Positions 3,833-39,182 of a stretch of 64,000 nt of DNA are shown in pieces; positions within the stretch are counted from its first letter, which is position 1; each line of letters opens with the position of its first letter. Both the position numbers and the translations under genes were made by a program. The notes under the pieces are model-generated. The model was not told the DNA's origin. It made no database searches and was given only the letters and a program-made list of their open reading frames with translations. Origin of the DNA: Bombella favorum. Lineage in GTDB: Bacteria > Pseudomonadota > Alphaproteobacteria > Acetobacterales > Acetobacteraceae. Location of the stretch: assembly GCF_014048475.1 (NCBI RefSeq), contig NZ_NWUS01000001.1:124001-188000 (forward strand), written 5' to 3'.

Positions 3833-3917
3833 GTGGTATTTTTAACATAAAATTAAAAAACCAGCCTGCTACGACCGTACATAAAGCTTGACCATCAGGA
3901 AAATATGGGTCACTTCC

Positions 3918-3946
3918 TTGAATGGGGACCTATTAGGTCTTAAATA
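3918..3946 (+). promoter_or_regulatory. Suf operon promoter with embedded palindromic operator candidate
   Basis: A -35 TTGAAT (3918-3923) and a weak -10 TAAATA (3941-3946) are 17 bases apart. The spacer holds a perfect 13-base palindrome, GACCTA-T-TAGGTC (3927-3939). A start site near 3953 would place the transcript just ahead of the GTG at 3981, which supports that start for the regulator. An Rrf2/IscR-type repressor binding here would block RNA polymerase directly. The promoter is inferred from consensus; the palindrome is plain in the sequence. Confidence 0.55.
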
Positions 3947-3980
3947 TAGAATCATTGATGTTGGCTGTAGGTTTTTCATT

Positions 3981-4475
3981 GTGCTGAGACTGTCCAAATT
4001 GGCTGATTATGCGACTGTTGTTCTTGTGCGTCTTGGCGTGCGTGGTGGCTTAGCCACGGCTGCGTCTCTAGCGCAGGAGACCGGCGTACCCGAGCCCACA
4101 GTTGCCAAACTGCTAAAAGGACTGGCCGCAGGTGGGTTGGTTGTCTCTTATCGTGGTGCACGTGGGGGATACCGACTGGCGGAAGAGTTGAAGGACATTT
4201 CCGTGGCGCGGGTCATCAGCGTGGTGGATGGGCCCATCTGTGTGACGGCCTGCTGTGATGGTAAGGAATGTGCCCACGGGGAGACCTGTGGGCTGTCCGG
4301 GCAGTGGGATATGGTGAATGGGGCGGTCCGGCAGGTGCTCGAGACCATTACTCTGGCCGATATGGCCAACCCAGAGCTGAAATTCGATCCGTCCTCTGCC
4401 GCACCGGCGGAAGCGACAATGCATAGGCCTGAGGAACAGGGAGGATGCCATGCCGGCTGTGTCGGAAACCCGTGA
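3981..4475 (+). CDS. Rrf2-family Fe-S regulator of the suf operon (IscR/SufR-like)
   Basis: This protein of 164 residues starts like other Rrf2 proteins ([14 protein letters not shown]), has a winged helix with the [12 protein letters not shown] recognition region, and carries cysteines at 91, 97 and 103 in a CX5CX5C pattern identical in spacing to the [2Fe-2S] ligands of IscR. It probably senses cluster supply and represses the suf operon. The frame extends upstream to 3888, but that extension crosses the probable promoter and does not resemble the family, so the GTG at 3981 is preferred. The 3' end overlaps sufB by 26 bases, implying one transcript. Confidence 0.88.
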
Positions 4476-5931
4476 AGCCGTCGAGAAACTGGCCAAGTCC
4501 AATTATGAATGGGGCTTTGAGACAAATGTGGAGATGGACCTCGCCCCGAAAGGGTTGAACGAGGACATTGTCCGGCTGATTTCCGCCCGCAAGAAAGAGC
4601 CGCAATGGATGCTGGAATGGCGGCTGAAGGCTTTCCGTGCGTGGCAGGAAATGAGCGAGCCGAATTGGGCGAAGATCAAGCATCCGCCGATTGATTATCA
4701 GGACGCTCATTATTTCGCTCAGCCCAAGAAAAAGGCTGGCCCCAAGAGCCTTGATGAAGTTGATCCCGAACTTCTAAAAACTTACGAGAAGCTCGGCATT
4801 CCCCTGCATGAGCAGGAGATGTTGGCCGGTGTGGAAGGGGCAGGGCAGAAGACACCTGTTGCCGTTGATGCGGTATTTGACAGCGTCTCCGTAGCGACGA
4901 CCTTCCGCAAGACGCTGGCCGAAGCGGGTGTGATTTTCTGCCCGATTTCTGAGGCTATTATCGAACATCCAGAACTGGTGAAGAAATATCTGGGTACGGT
5001 CGTACCAGTGGCGGACAATTTCTTCTCGGCTCTGAACTCGGCCGTCTTTACGGATGGTTCCTTTGTGTATGTGCCCAAAGGGGTGCGTTGCCCGATGGAG
5101 CTTTCCACTTACTTCCGTATTAACGCCCGTAATACGGGGCAGTTCGAGCGGACGCTGATCATTGCTGAAGATCAGGCCACCGTGTCCTATCTGGAAGGCT
5201 GCACAGCTCCCCAGCGTGATGAGAACCAGCTCCATGCTGCCGTTGTCGAGTTGGTGGCGATGGAAGATGCCTTCATCAAATATTCCACGGTGCAGAACTG
5301 GTATCCGGGTGATGAGAACGGTAAGGGCGGCATCTATAACTTTGTGACCAAGCGGGGCCTCTGCAAAGGTGACCGTGCCCGCATTTCATGGACACAGGTT
5401 GAAACCGGCTCCGCTATTACATGGAAGTATCCGTCCTGCATTCTGGCAGGGAAGGGCTCGGTTGGTGAGTTCTATTCTGTCGCCGTGACGAACGGGCATC
5501 AGCAGGCTGACACGGGCACAAAGATGATCCATCTTGCCCCGGATACACGCTCTACCATCGTGGCTAAGACCATTTCCGCTGGGAAGTCCGATAGTACCTA
5601 TCGGGGGCTTGTCCGTATGCAGCCCAAGGCCCGCAATGGGCGTAACTTCACACAATGTGACAGCCTGCTGATTGGTGACCAGTGCGGGGCCCATACGGTT
5701 CCTTATATCGAGAGCCGCAACATGAGCGCACGCATCGAGCATGAGGCGACAACATCCAAAATTTCCGAGGACCAGCTTTTCTATTGCCGGTCCCGTGGTT
5801 TTTCAGAAGAGGAAGCCGTTGGCCTGATCGTGAACGGTTTCTGCCGGGAGGTTCTCAAGGAGCTCCCGATGGAATTTGCTGTGGAAGCACAGAAGCTGCT
5901 TCAGATCAGTCTGGAAGGGAGCGTGGGTTAA
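4450..5931 (+). CDS. sufB: Fe-S cluster scaffold protein SufB
   Basis: SufB of 493 residues is the scaffold subunit of the cytosolic SufBCD complex, where sulfide and iron are assembled into a cluster with help from the SufC ATPase. Recognisable segments are [21 protein letters not shown], the beta-helix region with [18 protein letters not shown], and the C-terminal [18 protein letters not shown] typical of SufB/SufD. The length matches the family. The start has a good GGAGG (4440-4444) just upstream and lies inside the 3' end of the regulator gene. SufC follows after three bases, so translation is probably coupled. Confidence 0.97.
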
Positions 5932-5934
5932 GCT

Positions 5935-6705
5935 ATGAGTGATTTTCTGAAGATTGAAGGGCTGAAGGCCCAGATCGATGCTGACGGAACCCCCAAGGAA
6001 ATTCTGAAGGGTCTGGATCTGACAATCCCTAAGGGAGAGGTTCACGCCATTATGGGGCCGAATGGCTCCGGTAAGTCCACGCTGTCTTACGTTCTGGCAG
6101 GGCGTGAGGATTACGAGGTGACGGGCGGTTCCGCTCATTTCAAGGGGCAAGACCTGCTGGAGCTGGAGCCGGAAGAACGGGCTGCGCTGGGCGTGTTCCT
6201 TGCCTTCCAATCCCCTGTGGAACTGCCGGGCGTTAATAATGCCAACTTCCTGCGGACAGCCGTAAATGCTGTGCGTAAGGCTCGTGGTGAGGAAGAACTG
6301 GATGCCGTGTCCTTCCTCAAGCTAGCACGGGAGGAAACAAGCCGTCTTTCCATGTCTGGCGAAATGCTTAAGCGTGCCGTGAATGTCGGCTTCTCCGGTG
6401 GTGAGAAGAAGCGCAATGAAGTGCTTCAGATGCGTTTGCTCAAGCCTTCACTGGCCATTCTGGATGAGACGGATAGCGGGTTGGATATTGATGCCCTGCG
6501 TATTGTGGCTGATGGCGTCAACTCCCTGCGTGGGCCGGATTTCTCTTCTTTGGTGATCACCCACCATCAGCGTCTGCTGGATTATATCGTGCCGGATCGT
6601 GTGCATGTTATGGCGCACGGGCGCATCATCCATAGTGGCGGGCCGGAAGTGGCTAGCCTGCTGGAAAAACAGGGCTACAAACAGTTTCTTGAGGCAGCAG
6701 CGTGA
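5935..6705 (+). CDS. sufC: Fe-S assembly ATPase SufC
   Basis: This ABC-type ATPase of 256 residues energises the SufBCD scaffold; it is soluble and not a transporter. The Walker A motif GPNGSGKST is at residues 41-49. The signature FSGGEKKRNE and the Walker B region LAILDETDSGLDIDAL are the SufC versions of these motifs, and the switch histidine is in VITHHQR. The stop codon overlaps the GTG start of sufD by four bases. Confidence 0.97.
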   Translation: MSDFLKIEGLKAQIDADGTPKEILKGLDLTIPKGEVHAIMGPNGSGKSTLSYVLAGREDYEVTGGSAHFKGQDLLELEPEERAALGVFLAFQSPVELPGVNNANFLRTAVNAVRKARGEEELDAVSFLKLAREETSRLSMSGEMLKRAVNVGFSGGEKKRNEVLQMRLLKPSLAILDETDSGLDIDALRIVADGVNSLRGPDFSSLVITHHQRLLDYIVPDRVHVMAHGRIIHSGGPEVASLLEKQGYKQFLEAAA

Positions 6706-7901
6706 GTGAGAACAATGCAGCAGCCTGGCAGGCCCTAACGGGTCGTGCCGGGGAGCGTGCAGCCCTGCTGGGGACGGAAGGGCTGCCGACAAGGCGGGTA
6801 GAAGCATGGCATTATACGCCACTTCAGTCGCTGAACGGGGTCGCATGGCAGGCCGCTCCAGCCCTTGATGAAGCCGCTGTAAAGCAGCGTGTCGATGCGC
6901 TGAATTTGCCGGCTCATGATGGTTTGTTGGTCTTTGCCAATGGGCGGTTCTGCAAGAGCCTTTCCCATCTACCAGCCTGCATGGATGTGCAAGAATATGG
7001 CGATGGGGCTGCTGTGCCGGCGTTGCTGGCAGGGCGTTTCTCCGCTGGCTTGAATGCGGCTCTGCGGCAGCCGGGGGCACGGCTGCATGTTCCAGCCAAG
7101 ACGGATGCTGGCCTGATTGTCATGATCAGCCTGACAGAGGGAGAGGGTGTTTCTACTCATCTGCATCACAGCATCACATTGGAGGAAGATGCACGGCTGA
7201 GCTTGCTGGATATTCAGCTTGGCGAAGGCCAGTATCTGACCAACCCTCAGATGGATGTCCATTGTGCAGATAGGGCTCACTTCAGCCATATTACGCATCA
7301 GGCAGAAAGCCGTGAGGCGGCTCGACTAGGGATCATCAGTGCCCGCATTGGTGAGCGGAGCAATTACGATAGCTTCACGCTCAATCAAGGGGGGGGGGTG
7401 GCCCGTCAGGAAGTGGTTAGCCAGCTTTCTGGGCCGTTCAGTAACACGAACGTCAATGCTATTCAGCTTGTTGATGGCAACCGGCTGAATGATCTGTCTT
7501 CCATGATTCACCATGCGTCGCCAGACTGCACATCCCGTCAGACAGTGCGGACAGTTCTGTCCGAAAACGGGCAGGGTGTATTTCAGGGTAAGATTCTGGT
7601 GGATCAGATCGCCCAGAAGACTGATGGCTATCAGATGAATCAGGCTCTTCTTCTGTCTGAAAAGGCACAGATGAACAGCAAACCGGAGCTTGAGATTTAC
7701 GCTGATGACGTCAAGTGCAGCCACGGGGCGACCGTTGGTGCGCTGGATGAAGACCAGCTTTTCTATCTCCGCTCCCGTGGTGTGTTGGAAGAGCAGGCCC
7801 GTGATATGCTGGTTCAGGCCTTTCTGCTGGAAACGGTGGAACTGGTGGAGCATGAGAGCCTGCGTGACTATCTGCTGAAGGCGTTGCCCGGCCATGTTTG
7901 A
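6702..7901 (+). CDS. sufD: Fe-S assembly protein SufD
   Basis: SufD of 399 residues pairs with SufB in the SufBC2D complex and is needed for iron entry. The C-terminal half carries the family segments KCSHGATVGALDEDQLFYLRSRG and the preceding beta-helix. The N-terminal helical part is less conserved, as usual. Translation begins at a GTG that overlaps the sufC stop (GTGA), so coupling is likely. The reading frame runs through a ten-base guanine tract (7389-7398), coding GGG of residues NQGGGVARQ, a place prone to slippage or sequencing error. The 3' end overlaps sufS by eight bases. Confidence 0.95.
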   Translation: MSENNAAAWQALTGRAGERAALLGTEGLPTRRVEAWHYTPLQSLNGVAWQAAPALDEAAVKQRVDALNLPAHDGLLVFANGRFCKSLSHLPACMDVQEYGDGAAVPALLAGRFSAGLNAALRQPGARLHVPAKTDAGLIVMISLTEGEGVSTHLHHSITLEEDARLSLLDIQLGEGQYLTNPQMDVHCADRAHFSHITHQAESREAARLGIISARIGERSNYDSFTLNQGGGVARQEVVSQLSGPFSNTNVNAIQLVDGNRLNDLSSMIHHASPDCTSRQTVRTVLSENGQGVFQGKILVDQIAQKTDGYQMNQALLLSEKAQMNSKPELEIYADDVKCSHGATVGALDEDQLFYLRSRGVLEEQARDMLVQAFLLETVELVEHESLRDYLLKALPGHV

Positions 7902-9105
7902 TAATGTACGTGCTCGCTTCCCCATTCTTTCCGAAACGGCCCATGGTCGTCCGCTTGTCTTTTTGGACAGTGCGGCCTCTGCCCAGAAGCCGGAGTGCGT
8001 CATCGACGCCATGAGTGAAGCGGCACGGCATTGTTACGCCAATATTCATCGTGGCTTGTACGACATGAGCGACCGGACCACGCAGGCCTATGAAGCCGTG
8101 CGGGACGATGTGGCCCGGTTCCTCAATGCGGCGGATCGGCGGGAGATTGTCTTTACTAAAAACAGTACGGAAGGTTTCAATCTGTTGGCCTATTCGCTGG
8201 GCAGTCAGCTGAAACCCGGGCAGGCCGTGCTGATTTCTGCACTGGAGCACCACGCCAATATCGTGCCGTGGCTCATGTTGCGGGACCGTCTTGGCATCGA
8301 GCTGCGTGTTGCACCGATCAATGAGGCTGGCGATATCGACCTTGCCGCATATGAAGAGTTGCTGAGTGATGGCTGCGTTGCTCTGGTTTCGGTCACGCAT
8401 ATGTCCAATGTGCTGGGGACCATCACGCCGGTAACGAAGTTGGCAGAGCTTGCCCATCAGTATGGTGCGAAGATCATTGTTGATGGTTCTCAGTCTATCG
8501 TTCATCGCAAGGTGGATGTGCAGGCTCTGGGAGCGGATTTCTTCCTCTTCACCGGGCACAAACTCTATGGCCCAACAGGGGTTGGCATCCTGTGGGGAAA
8601 GCTGCCTCTGCTGGAAGATATGCCGCCTTTCCTTGGAGGGGGGGACATGATCCGCTCTGTCTCTTTCGAGAAGGCCACATGGGCCGATGCCCCGCATAAG
8701 TTCGAGGCCGGTACGCCTGCTATCTTGGAAGTACTGGGTCTAGGGGCTGCCATCCGTTTTGTGGAAAGCTTGGGGGCAGAGGCAATTGAAGCACATGAAC
8801 GTGACCTGATTGCTTATGCTCAGAAGGTTCTTGAAAAGACGGACGGGGTGCGCATCATGGGTAACCCGGTGGAGCGGGGAGGAGTTTTCTCGCTGCAGGT
8901 AGAGGGGGCTCATCCCCATGATCTGGCTGTATTGCTGGACCAACAGGGAATTGCCATCCGGGCGGGACAGCATTGTGCTGAACCGTTGATGCACGAGCTG
9001 GGAGTACAGGCCACTGCCCGGGCCAGTTTTGCCATTTATACGACACGTGACGAGATAGACGCTCTGGCCCATGGCATTGAGCGTGCGCGTGCCTTACTTG
9101 CGTGA
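7894..9105 (+). CDS. sufS: Cysteine desulfurase SufS
   Basis: This PLP enzyme of 403 residues takes sulfur from L-cysteine, giving alanine and a protein persulfide that feeds SufB. The PLP lysine is K223 in FTGHKLYGPTG, the catalytic cysteine is about C361 in AGQHCAEPLM, and EHHANIVPW is the typical group II desulfurase segment. No sufE or sufU partner lies in this operon, so a sulfur acceptor must be encoded elsewhere or the scaffold takes sulfur directly. The start ATG overlaps the end of sufD. Confidence 0.97.
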   Translation: MFDNVRARFPILSETAHGRPLVFLDSAASAQKPECVIDAMSEAARHCYANIHRGLYDMSDRTTQAYEAVRDDVARFLNAADRREIVFTKNSTEGFNLLAYSLGSQLKPGQAVLISALEHHANIVPWLMLRDRLGIELRVAPINEAGDIDLAAYEELLSDGCVALVSVTHMSNVLGTITPVTKLAELAHQYGAKIIVDGSQSIVHRKVDVQALGADFFLFTGHKLYGPTGVGILWGKLPLLEDMPPFLGGGDMIRSVSFEKATWADAPHKFEAGTPAILEVLGLGAAIRFVESLGAEAIEAHERDLIAYAQKVLEKTDGVRIMGNPVERGGVFSLQVEGAHPHDLAVLLDQQGIAIRAGQHCAEPLMHELGVQATARASFAIYTTRDEIDALAHGIERARALLA

Positions 9106-27473: not shown

Positions 27474-28721
27474 ATGTTCGGGCGATTTGAGCGGACAGTT
27501 GCCCTACGCTATCTGCGTGCCCGCAAGGGAGAACGCTTTGCATCCGTCATTGCGCTTTTCTCCCTTGTCGGTATTGCCCTGGGGGTAGCGACGCTCATCA
27601 TCGTTATGGCTGTGATGAACGGTTTCAAGGCTGACCTGATGGGGCGGATTCTTGGCCTGCATGGGGATCTGAATGTCTATGCCTATGGGCAGGTCATCCG
27701 GGAGTATAAGGATGATGCGGCGTTGATCCGTAAGGTGCCCGGTGTGACGCAGGTTTTGCCCATGACGCAGGGCACAGTCCTTGCAGAAGCGGGGCGTTAT
27801 TCCACAGGTGCTATGCTGGAAGGGCTAGCACAGGATGACTTGCGGAACTGGAAAGCCCTCAGTGATGGAATCATGGAAGGCAGTTTGGATGACTTCCAGG
27901 GTGATTCTGCCGTTGCCGTGGGGGTCACGCTGGCCGAACGGGCCGGGTTGCATGTTGGCTCGCCACTGACCATTCTTTCGCCCAATGGTCAGGCCACGCC
28001 ATTCGGTACGATGCCACGGGTGCGGAAACTGCATGTGGCCCTGATCTTTGATGCCAACTGGAATGATTATAACAGTAACATCATTCTTATGCCGCTGGCG
28101 GCCTCCCAAAAATTCCTCATGATGGGAGATGGGGTCTCGTTGATGCAGGTTAGCACGTCCGACCCGCTGCATGTTAGACTGACCAGCCATCAGATTACGG
28201 ACGTTTTGAACGATCCTCGCCTTCAGGTGCTGGACTGGACACAGAGCGCTAACGGTTTTCTGGATGCCGTGACAGTGGAACAAAATGTAATGTTCCTCAT
28301 CCTCACGCTCATCATTCTTGTGGCGGCCTTTAACGTGATTTCCTCGCTCATCATGATGGTCAAGGACAAGACACGGGACATTGCTGTGCTGCGAACCTTC
28401 GGGGCCAGTCGGGGCAGTGTAATGCGGATTTTCTTAATGTGCGGGGCGTCTGTTGGTGTGGTGGGAACGGTCGTGGGAACGGGGCTGGGCATTTGCTTTG
28501 CCCTGAATATCGAGCGGATCCGGCACGTGCTTGAGTCCCTAACGGGTACGGACCTGTTTAATCCGGAGGTTTATTTTCTCGCCCGTCTTCCGGCCCGCCT
28601 AGTGTGGTCGCAGGTTGTGGAAGTCGCCGTGCTGTCGTTGGTTCTGTCGCTGTTGGCTACGCTGTACCCCTCATGGCGTGCGGCAAAGACCGACCCGGTG
28701 GAGGCGCTGCGGCATGAGTGA
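27474..28721 (+). CDS. lolC: Lipoprotein-releasing ABC transporter permease (LolC/E family)
   Basis: This inner-membrane permease of 415 residues extracts lipoproteins from the inner membrane and hands them to LolA. It has an N-terminal transmembrane segment (about 24-48, [24 protein letters not shown]), a large periplasmic domain and three C-terminal segments. Only one LolC/E-type permease is encoded here, so it probably acts as a homodimer with LolD. It overlaps lolD by eight bases. Confidence 0.94.
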
Positions 28722-29412
28722 GACAAAACAGACCACGGTTTTAACGCTTGAAGCACTGGGGCGGTCCTTTCATTCTGGTGATGAAGAGCTGCATATCCTA
28801 CGGGGGGCCAATTTCGCCCTAAAGAGCGGTGAGTTGGTTGCGCTTGTAGCACCAAGCGGAACGGGTAAATCTACTTTGCTCCATCTGGCTGGCCTGCTGG
28901 AGCGTCCTGACAGGGGCGAGGTCTTCATTAAAGGGCAGCCTACGTCCAAACTGGGCGAGGCGGGGCGGACAGCTCTGCGGCGGGATGAAATCGGTTTTGT
29001 GTACCAGTTTCATCATTTGTTGCGGGAATTTACGGCCGTGGAAAATGTCATGCTGCCTCAGCTTGCAGCAGGCGTAAAGCCAGCCGAGGCTCGGAAGCGT
29101 GCGGAAGATCTGTTGGGCCGTTTTGGTTTGTCTCATCGGCTGGCGGCCTTGCCGGGGCGTATGTCTGGCGGGGAGCAGCAGCGGACGGCGATTGCCCGTG
29201 CGCTGGCCAATCGGCCTAGCCTGCTTCTGGCTGATGAGCCGACGGGCAATCTGGATACAAAGACGGCCGATCTCGTTTTCACTGAGCTGATGCGTGTTGT
29301 GCGGGAAGAAGGCGTAGCCGCTTTGATCGCTACCCATAATGAGGCTCTGGCCGCAGCGATGGATCGTACTGTCACGCTTTATGAAGGGCGAATCATTCCT
29401 TTTCAGGGATGA
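28714..29412 (+). CDS. lolD: Lipoprotein-releasing ABC transporter ATPase LolD
   Basis: LolD of 232 residues powers lipoprotein release by the permease encoded just upstream. Walker A is APSGTGKST, the signature [15 protein letters not shown], and Walker [13 protein letters not shown]; the LolD-type segment [20 protein letters not shown] is clear. The frame opens at 28615, but the ATG at 28714 gives the normal N-terminus ([15 protein letters not shown]) and overlaps the lolC stop. Confidence 0.95.
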
Positions 29413-37480: not shown

Positions 37481-37543
37481 ATTCCTGTTATGAATATGAC
37501 AGACGGAGCCTGTAACTCTGTAAACAAGCGTGGAAGAGAACCA

Positions 37544-37843
37544 ATGAAAAGAGGCGACCGCATGAAGGCGGTGCTAGAGGATGCTCTGCATCCCTCCGTG
37601 CTGGAAATTCGGGATGATAGTGCCCGCCACCGTCACCATGCTGCTATGCAGACTCAGGCCCAGCAGAGCCGAGGACCAGCGCAGGTAGGCGAGACACATT
37701 ATCACTTGCATGTCGTTAGTAGTCGGTTTGACGGTATGAAAACTCTGGCCCGGCATAGGCTTGTGCATGAGCTTCTAGCTGAAGAATTCAAGACAGGACT
37801 TCACGCCCTTTCTCTATCTCTGAAAGGGGAGAACCAGCCATGA
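37544..37843 (+). CDS. BolA family protein
   Basis: A small BolA-type protein of 99 residues. The family signature HLHVVSSRFDGMKTLARHR, with the invariant C-terminal His, is present. Such proteins bind monothiol glutaredoxins and [2Fe-2S] clusters or act as regulators. A start at 37490 is possible; the ATG at 37544 has GGAAGAG five bases upstream and gives the usual length. The stop overlaps the following LolA-family gene by four bases. Confidence 0.9.
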   Translation: MKRGDRMKAVLEDALHPSVLEIRDDSARHRHHAAMQTQAQQSRGPAQVGETHYHLHVVSSRFDGMKTLARHRLVHELLAEEFKTGLHALSLSLKGENQP

Positions 37844-38472
37844 AGCGGCGTATGATTGCCAGAAGCCTGCTGCTCTGGGTGGGTGTGGTGGCTGGTCCGC
37901 TGGGTGCTGTGGGTCTGACAGGATGTGCCACATCCGGCTATGATCATCTTGTCACAAATGACCAGCACGACATCCACCGAGTGGAAAATTATCTCAACGG
38001 GTTGACCTCGTTGCAGGCATCATTTGTGCAGACTGGCCCAGCCCAGCAGGGTGATGGACATTTCACCTATGCGCCCGGCCGCTTCGAGATGGTATATGAA
38101 GTGCCCCATGCCATGCGGGCCGTGGCCCGGGATGGTCATTTTGTTCTGCGTAATGCTGATAATGGTGCTGTGACGCACTTATCTCTCAAGAGAAATCCGC
38201 TGGGCTTGTTGCTCCGTCGTCCGGTCAGTTTCGATGGGGATGTTCAGGTTACCAACGTATCCCGTGGTGCTGAATCGCTTCAAATCTCCGTAGCGGAGGC
38301 CAACAATCCCTCTCAAGGGTTGCTGACCCTCCAATTTGCAGATGTGCGTGGTAAGCTGACACTCGTAGGCATACAGGGTGTTGATGCCCGGAATCATCAT
38401 TTTGGCCTTTCCCTGTTTGATGTGCAGGAGAATCAGCCCGTTTCTGAAGATAGCTTTATCCTGCCGGAATAG
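37840..38472 (+). CDS. lolA: LolA-family lipoprotein carrier with lipobox
   Basis: The protein of 210 residues matches the LolA family: [15 protein letters not shown], the [11 protein letters not shown] strand, [10 protein letters not shown] and the C-terminal [17 protein letters not shown]. LolA normally is a soluble periplasmic shuttle for lipoproteins. Here the signal sequence ends in LTGC at about residues 26-29, a regular lipobox with Ala after the Cys, predicting a lipid-anchored, outer-membrane form. That layout is the one expected for LolB. It overlaps bolA (ATGA). Confidence 0.85.
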
Positions 38473-39148
38473 CGGCAGGCAGAGCTGGCGAGCCGAACAG
38501 GCTTGCCCAGTTTTTTAGAAGGGCAGCGTCGGCATCTTGCATGCGTAGGGACGGGTTGAAGCGTTGTAGGCTGGTCACGCCATAGTCACGAATGCCGCAA
38601 GGAATGATTCCTTCAAAGTCACTAAGTGATGGTGAGACGTTTAGCGAGATGCCGTGCCAGCTGACCCAGCGTGTGACGCGGATTCCGAGAGCGGCGATTT
38701 TGGCTTCTTGCCCAGTTTGAGAATCAAAGCACCAGACACCAATGCGCCCTTCCCGTGTGAAAGCGTCAATATTCATGTCTTGAAGGCTCATAATAAGCCA
38801 GCGTTCCAGAGTTTGGACGAATGCCCTGATATCCCGAGGGGGGAGAGGGCCATGCTGGCGTGTTAAGTCCAGCATGATATAGGCGAGACGCTGGCCTGGG
38901 CCGTGATAAGTCCATTGCCCTCCACGTCCGGCCTCAAAGGTTGGATAATTATGAGGGTTGATGAGGTCTTCAGCCTTGGCCGAGGTGCCGGCCGTATAAA
39001 GGGGCGGGTGTTCTGTCAGCCAGATACGCTGGGGGGCTTGTTGTCGATGTATGGCCTCGACTTGCTGGCGCATGAAAGTGAGAGCTTCCGGGTAGGGGCA
39101 GAGTTTTTTATCTACCTGCCAGATAATTTCTTTATAAAACTGTGTCAT
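38456..39148 (-). CDS. lipB: Lipoyl(octanoyl) transferase LipB
   Basis: LipB of 230 residues moves octanoyl groups from acyl carrier protein to lipoyl domains of 2-oxoacid dehydrogenases and the glycine cleavage system. [30 protein letters not shown] (catalytic Lys) and [14 protein letters not shown] (catalytic Cys) are all present. The next in-frame ATG upstream is 39154; 39148 has a better spacing to GAGAGGG. Its end overlaps the convergent LolA-family gene by 17 bases. Confidence 0.94.
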
Positions 39149-39153
39149 GACCA

Positions 39154-39182
39154 TTGCCCTCTCTGTTTTGATGGGCTATAGG
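39154..39182 (+). promoter_or_regulatory. Candidate promoter of tRNA-Leu(GAG)
   Basis: TTGCCC (39154-39159) and TATAGG (39177-39182) are 17 bases apart, about 57 bases before the tRNA. It overlaps the lipB ribosome-binding region on the other strand. Confidence 0.52.

Follow-up and report, generated by a model that had tools for sequence, protein, structure and literature searches.

Analysis of the window, the whole 64,000-nucleotide stretch of Bombella favorum DNA studied here, indicated that a LolA-family gene with a predicted lipobox lies between a bolA-like gene and a convergent lipB gene, and that a LolC/E-type permease and a LolD ATPase are encoded in the same window (Table 1). We refer to the LolA-family protein as lip, for lipidated copy, a label coined in this analysis. 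The stop of the bolA-like gene overlaps the start of lip (ATGA), and the two genes are likely carried on one transcript, while the 3' ends of lipB and lip overlap by 17 bases. On the loci compared, lipB appears to be a conserved neighbour of lip; a functional link between the two is not claimed. The match of lip to Pfam LolA (PF03548) reaches 36.5 bits over a curated cut-off of 23.6, and its score with the LolA equivalog TIGR00547, 25.9 bits, fails the cut-off of 112. The LolD ORF adjoins the permease and, with 245.6 bits, lies below the NCBIfam LolD cut-off of 307.75. These findings bear out the original prediction in two respects, namely a LolA-family ORF whose LTGC is followed by Ala at +2, and the presence of LolC and LolD in the same window. 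The window also contains a SUF iron-sulphur operon (3888–9105: regulator, SufB, SufC, SufD and SufS); the ABC ATPase at 5935–6705 is SufC and not LolD. Further neighbours of lip, recognised by eye alone, are presumably CobS, CobT, GalU and PMM.

Table 1. Features of the lip locus and Lol genes of the window
Feature	Position	Strand	Basis
lip, lipobox-bearing LolA-family protein, 210 aa, ATG start	37840–38472	+	ORF, Pfam LolA, model
Predicted lipoprotein signal peptide with lipobox LTGC	37840–37926	+	Residues 1–29, sequence reading
LolA domain, lip residues 54–206	37999–38457	+	Pfam range
bolA-like gene	37490–37843	+	Pfam BolA, 86 bits
lipB, lipoyl(octanoyl) transferase, convergent to lip	38456–39154	-	NCBIfam LipB
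LolC/E-type permease (LolC)	27474–28721	+	TIGR02212, 447 bits, cut-off 362
LolD ATPase ORF, true start unsettled	28615–29412	+	LolD best NCBIfam hit

Analysis of the lip N-terminus revealed a charged start followed by a hydrophobic stretch and the LTGC motif, with Cys29 and Ala at +2 (LTGC codons at 37915–37926, Cys29 codon TGT at 37924–37926). Lipobox and signal peptide calls were made by eye and with a loose pattern, which matches 66 of the 67 lip sequences (rows) read across the family, the remaining row reading LNAC. The residue after the Cys in the 66 matching rows is Ala in 50, Gln in 10, His in 2, Met in 2, Gly in 1 and Leu in 1. Among the lip loci of named genomes, 47 of 48 match and all 47 carry Ala at +2; in the remaining one, L345, the frame leaves no upstream sequence to judge. 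The loose pattern is also present, at scattered positions, in 12 of 74 distinct soluble LolA rows, that of the window's own genome among them, so the evidence for the lipobox is the conservation of one column and not the pattern. In this column the Cys, far from missing in relatives, is invariant in all 49 aligned lip rows, the window's own row included, which rules out a chance lipobox; the pattern alone would be insufficient. Of four divergent lip rows read later, L277, L287 and L293 carry a regular lipobox and L289 an irregular one, GRC. Judged by eye and by pattern, lip lacks the soluble-type signal peptide without lipobox of a LolA carrier, and it has the acylatable N-terminal Cys of LolB in the form of a conserved predicted lipobox. 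Lgt and LspA are both encoded in the window's genome. One lip copy (L143, G268) departs in its C-terminal part from the reading frame of close relatives, which may reflect a pseudogene or a sequencing error.

The genome, with 1.97 Mb in 7 contigs and a completeness of 100, has Bombella intestini as its closest named relative (97% identity in lip). A second, soluble LolA, whose existence elsewhere in the genome the original prediction had left to be checked, is encoded at C1:212433–212891 (92 bits), about 50 kb from lip. Its signal peptide reads RQAVA/GVSL and is of the soluble-protein type; a VVAC stretch lies very near the start, too early for a lipobox as judged by eye. LolB (PF03550) was not found in this genome in a profile search at E values up to 10, with control matches obtained in E. 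coli and Thermotoga (above the cut-off in one of them), and PF03550 was not among the Pfam hits of the lip protein. Besides the LolC/E permease of the window, no strong FtsX-domain match was found in the genome; one further match, elsewhere, lies below the cut-off.

Lip and the soluble LolA were each modelled with AlphaFold at a mean pLDDT of 90.1. The lip model is best matched by the LolA structure 9c89 (Z 18.0, RMSD 3.0, 166 residues aligned) and compares with LolB 1iwm at Z 9.8 (RMSD 3.8, 152 aligned), while the soluble LolA model compares with LolA 8veh at Z 20.5 (RMSD 2.1, 174 aligned) and with LolB 1iwm at Z 10.6 (RMSD 3.7, 154 aligned). Because both models resemble LolA more than LolB, the fold does not separate carrier from receptor. 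LprG (3mha), a lipid-binding lipoprotein of the LolA fold, is among the Foldseek matches of lip (E 4.7e-6); LolA structures rank far above it, and RseB/MucB are among the lower fold matches. Profile comparison found E. coli LolA with a probability of 77 for lip and 94 for the soluble protein, and it did not find LolB with either. In terms of family, lip is a LolA protein in the broad sense and lies outside the LolB family.

To place lip among its relatives, 142 rows were read, from which 2 identical to another row over the last 120 residues, 16 near-duplicate lip rows and L143 were dropped, and the remaining 123 family rows were combined with 8 rows from other families into a 131-row tree. Rooted on the other-family rows, this tree places lip as one clade (SH-aLRT 96) inside the LolA of the family, and the lip clade is supported at 99/98 in a bootstrap tree of 58 of the 131 rows. 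The tree and column counts do not include L277, L287, L289, L293 and the 48 named loci; a divergent soluble row, L152, is in the tree and outside the 73 soluble rows counted. A topology that keeps lip outside the soluble LolAs of the family was rejected, being 22 log units worse (p-AU 0.025). This provides moderate evidence for the placement, given that the first tree had been seen before the test was made and that the lip branches are long. These trees suggest that lip is an old LolA paralogue with a single origin by duplication inside the Acetobacteraceae. Horizontal gain of LolB was ruled out, lip being nested in the family's own LolA and having no LolB match. Comparison within Bombella gave dN/dS values of about 0.05–0.11 for lip in five of six pairs, the sixth being saturated, and of 0.06 and 0.08 for soluble LolA in two pairs, with two further pairs saturated. 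These ratios indicate that lip is under purifying selection.

Both lip and soluble LolA are present in all 10 genomes of the same genus. Across 249 Acetobacteraceae genomes, the lip profile gave two matches in every genome sampled from genera that have the bolA-lip-lipB arrangement, and among the genera of the basal rows a single match in one of three g65 genomes and three of four g115 genomes. We read lip in 66 genomes of the family, as 67 rows with two in G105, and a soluble LolA beside it in 47 of the 66; a second match was counted in 18 of the other 19, the exception being G105. In this genome, a 290-contig assembly, both copies (L149 and L150) are lipidated-type LolA proteins, with no soluble one among the matches found. 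Named holders among close relatives are Bombella, Parasaccharibacter, Saccharibacter, Gluconobacter, Neokomagataea, Brytella, Asaia, Swaminathania and Tanticharoenia. The 52 non-basal lip loci fetched with flanks have lipB within 600 bases in 49 and bolA in 41, some of the missing neighbours being explained by contig ends, and the four basal lip rows (g65, g96) have neither gene adjacent. Two g46 loci (L287 and L293, in G055 and G141) combine very divergent lip and soluble LolA proteins in genomes of 1.9–2.1 Mb; despite the divergence, the lipobox Cys and the place between bolA and lipB are retained, both genes being present.

Outside the family, the lip profile matches 239 of 289 alphaproteobacterial genomes. 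Among the matches listed, a lip-level score (at least 187 bits) occurs in 4 of the 289, all Acetobacteraceae, and no other-family match exceeds 147 bits. In the best 26 other-family loci no lipobox was recognised by eye, and the soluble profile outscores the lip profile on them. In 50 of the 289 genomes no match was obtained at the threshold used, and lip there may be diverged or lost. A general alphaproteobacterial lipidated LolA was not seen in this sample, and the sampled genomes suggest that lip is a solution of this family and not of the class. A phylum sample of 150 genomes gave 56 LolB matches, none of them labelled as belonging to the same class; 74 genomes with no match were counted without names. 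Most of the weak second LolA-family hits in other Acetobacteraceae (L233–L246) score with neither the lip nor the soluble profile, and one genome of another alphaproteobacterial family (L027, G030) has tandem LolA genes, both without a lipobox by eye.

Comparison of lip with soluble LolA, with numbering checked on E. coli K-12 LolA and LolB, revealed changes at positions of known function in the carrier. The equivalents of E. coli LolA R43, W49, F140 and S150 in the window protein are Ala78, Met84, Ile178 and Phe188, so that the lid arginine of LolA is not present. At the R43 position, Arg is found in 72 of 73 soluble rows, 7 of 8 other-family rows and 7 of 49 lip rows, of which 4 are basal; one further lip row has Lys. 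The F140 position is Trp in all soluble (73/73) and other-family (8/8) rows and Leu, Ile, Val or Met in 48 of 49 lip rows, with Phe in the last. Thr occupies the S150 position in 70/73 soluble and 8/8 other-family rows, while Thr or Ser does so in 14/49 lip rows. At the W49 position, Phe is found in 72/73 soluble and 4/8 other-family rows, and no lip row (0/49) is aromatic. The C-terminal tail Phe is missing in 14/49 lip rows and in none of the soluble (0/73) or other-family (0/8) rows; it is kept in 35 of the 49 lip rows and in the window protein, where a 22-residue tail with Phe206 remains. In an alignment of distant proteins, the position of LolB Leu68, the exposed Leu of the loop joining strands 3 and 4, corresponds to His90 and is not conserved as Leu in lip. 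A loop conserved in alphaproteobacterial soluble LolA is changed in lip and kept by the soluble LolA of lip genomes, which could mean that soluble LolA retains an insertase role.

Work on E. coli LolA gives these positions a functional meaning (PMC9457489). R43 is reported to hold the lid closed, and the R43L mutant takes up lipoproteins and is unable to hand them to LolB. A significant effect is reported for F140A and a small one for W49A, and the acyl carbonyl is bound by S150 and Y152. LolA binds the LolC Pad with a C-terminal extension, which LolB does not possess (PMC9457489). R43L impairs a carrier, and loss of this residue is expected only for a receptor, the LolB counterpart being without the arginine. 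One-way transfer has been explained by LolB having smaller aliphatic residues where LolA has aromatics (PMC4623201); contrary to this explanation, aromatics are expected to contact lipid in the Xanthomonas LolB, which is also described as being without the loop Leu (PMC10368991). An Arg on the b2–b3 loop and a C-terminal segment have been listed as LolA-like traits and an acylatable Cys as LolB-like (PMC13103446).

With the LolA carrier (E. coli LolA, PF03548), lip shares the homologous domain, a LolA-like predicted fold and its nesting in the tree; it differs in its lipobox, in the loss from most rows of the R43, F140 and S150 equivalents and in failing the equivalog model. With the LolB of Gamma- and Betaproteobacteria (E. 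coli; PF03550), it shares the common LolA-type fold, an acylatable N-terminal Cys and, in most rows, the absence of the lid arginine, but has no PF03550 match or profile similarity, a separate origin, no Leu aligned at the loop position and a fold nearer LolA. LolA-fold lipoproteins outside the classical LolB are already described as LolB-like solutions in Bacteroidota, namely F. johnsoniae LolB1 and LolB2 and P. gingivalis LolB-PG (PMC11885536, PMC13103446). LolB-PG is reported likewise to mix LolA-like and LolB-like traits (PMC13103446). These proteins belong to another phylum and, compared here by description and not by tree, have an exposed hydrophobic loop residue; LolB-PG retains the inward arginine that lip has mostly lost. 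Another alphaproteobacterial way without LolB is reported for Caulobacter vibrioides, in which one LolA protein does both jobs (PMC11784454), whereas lip genomes have two paralogues, one with a lipobox.

Taken together, we lean towards lip being an outer-membrane lipoprotein, a LolA duplicate that arose within the Acetobacteraceae and works like LolB. Receipt of lipoproteins from soluble LolA at the outer membrane would be the most economical reading, based on the observed paralogy, single origin, conserved lipobox and co-presence of soluble LolA, on LolB going undetected in the window's genome and on the loss of carrier residues in lip alone. In such a pathway, Lgt and LspA would lipidate lip and the Lol pathway would place it in the outer membrane. 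LolC/E-LolD would load lipoproteins onto soluble LolA, which would dock on the anchored lip. The acyl chains would then move into the cavity of lip, in which other residues stand in place of the lid arginine and key aromatics of the carrier; lip would act as acceptor and insertase. We consider it an even call whether the acetic acid bacteria thereby re-invented LolB, with an Acetobacteraceae LolA duplicate gaining a lipid anchor and shedding carrier features stepwise, and the pathway becoming a two-protein relay independent of the gamma/beta LolB. The F140 aromatic would have gone first and the R43 latch next, with the tail following in some lineages. Several points weigh against a LolB-like role: the predicted fold is LolA-like, the LolB-loop Leu is not conserved and most lip rows keep the tail Phe; W49A is mild in E. 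coli LolA, the four basal lip rows keep R43 and G105 has no soluble copy seen. In addition, the soluble LolA keeps the loop that is changed in lip and may itself be bifunctional, by analogy with the report on Caulobacter (PMC11784454).

The original prediction had proposed lip as a LolB substitute or as a combined carrier and receptor. The first proposal fits the undetected LolB, the soluble LolA, the invariant Cys and the lost carrier residues; the second is taken up below. Among the other explanations, an unlikely one that still deserves weight is that lip serves another lipid, or a small lipoprotein subset, as a chaperone anchored in the outer membrane, with soluble LolA alone completing general delivery. 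Specialised LolA/LolB copies, including for flexirubin, are proposed in Flavobacterium (PMC11885536), and the P. gingivalis LolB-like protein is reported to bind its LolA, with a deletion that spares growth and fimbriae (PMC13103446). The strongly changed cavity-side columns of lip and the LprG match are consistent with such a chaperone, but LolA structures outrank LprG by far, and lipid-synthesis genes were not seen adjacent to lip, whose neighbours are bolA, lipB and others.

Less probable still is a reading in which soluble LolA does both jobs, as in Caulobacter, and lip serves at the outer membrane in accessory docking or quality control, or as an RseB-like sensor, and not as the insertase. 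In E. coli, the Caulobacter LolA is reported to stand in for LolA as well as for LolB (PMC11784454), the soluble LolA of lip genomes retains the alphaproteobacterial loop that is changed in lip, and RseB/MucB appear among the fold matches. Against this reading stand the purifying selection on lip and the matching of lip in all sampled genomes of the bolA-lip-lipB genera, small ones too, as fits a core role. That lip is carrier and receptor in one is highly improbable and is disfavoured because soluble LolA was read beside lip in 47 of the 66 lip genomes; the retained LolA fold, the short C-terminal tail of the window protein and G105 with its two lipidated copies would suit it, but the equivalents of the carrier-required R43, F140 and S150 are gone from most lip rows. 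We give equally little credence to an unused lipobox, cleaved without lipidation, or to a decaying lip gene, for although the out-of-frame end of L143, some long lip branches and the GRC box of L289 point that way, the Cys is invariant over many genera, dN/dS is well below 1 and Lgt and LspA are present.

Alphaproteobacteria are described as having no LolB (PMC4623201, PMC10787603), and the origin of LolB is placed after the split from this class (PMC11784454). Receipt of lipoproteins by lip would bear on the question of how bacteria without LolB complete lipoprotein delivery and, if true, would mean that LolA has divided into a carrier and a receptor a second time, independently. As an independent analogue of LolB, lip would reveal the changes by which a receptor arises from a carrier, and the basal rows that keep R43 may be surviving intermediates. 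The titles and abstract openings of the open-licence literature gave no mention of a LolA-family lipoprotein in acetic acid bacteria. The occurrence of lip in Gluconobacter makes it open to genetic testing there.

The soluble LolA also varies among these genomes. Its tail has a median length of 25 residues in the lip-bearing clade, 33 in other Acetobacteraceae and 32 in other families, and the shorter tail is possibly a co-change with lip or a matter of shared ancestry. One soluble-type LolA of a lip genome (L062, G011) contains LALGC/AT in its signal peptide, ahead of an AQ/DAA-like site, and could be lipidated itself.
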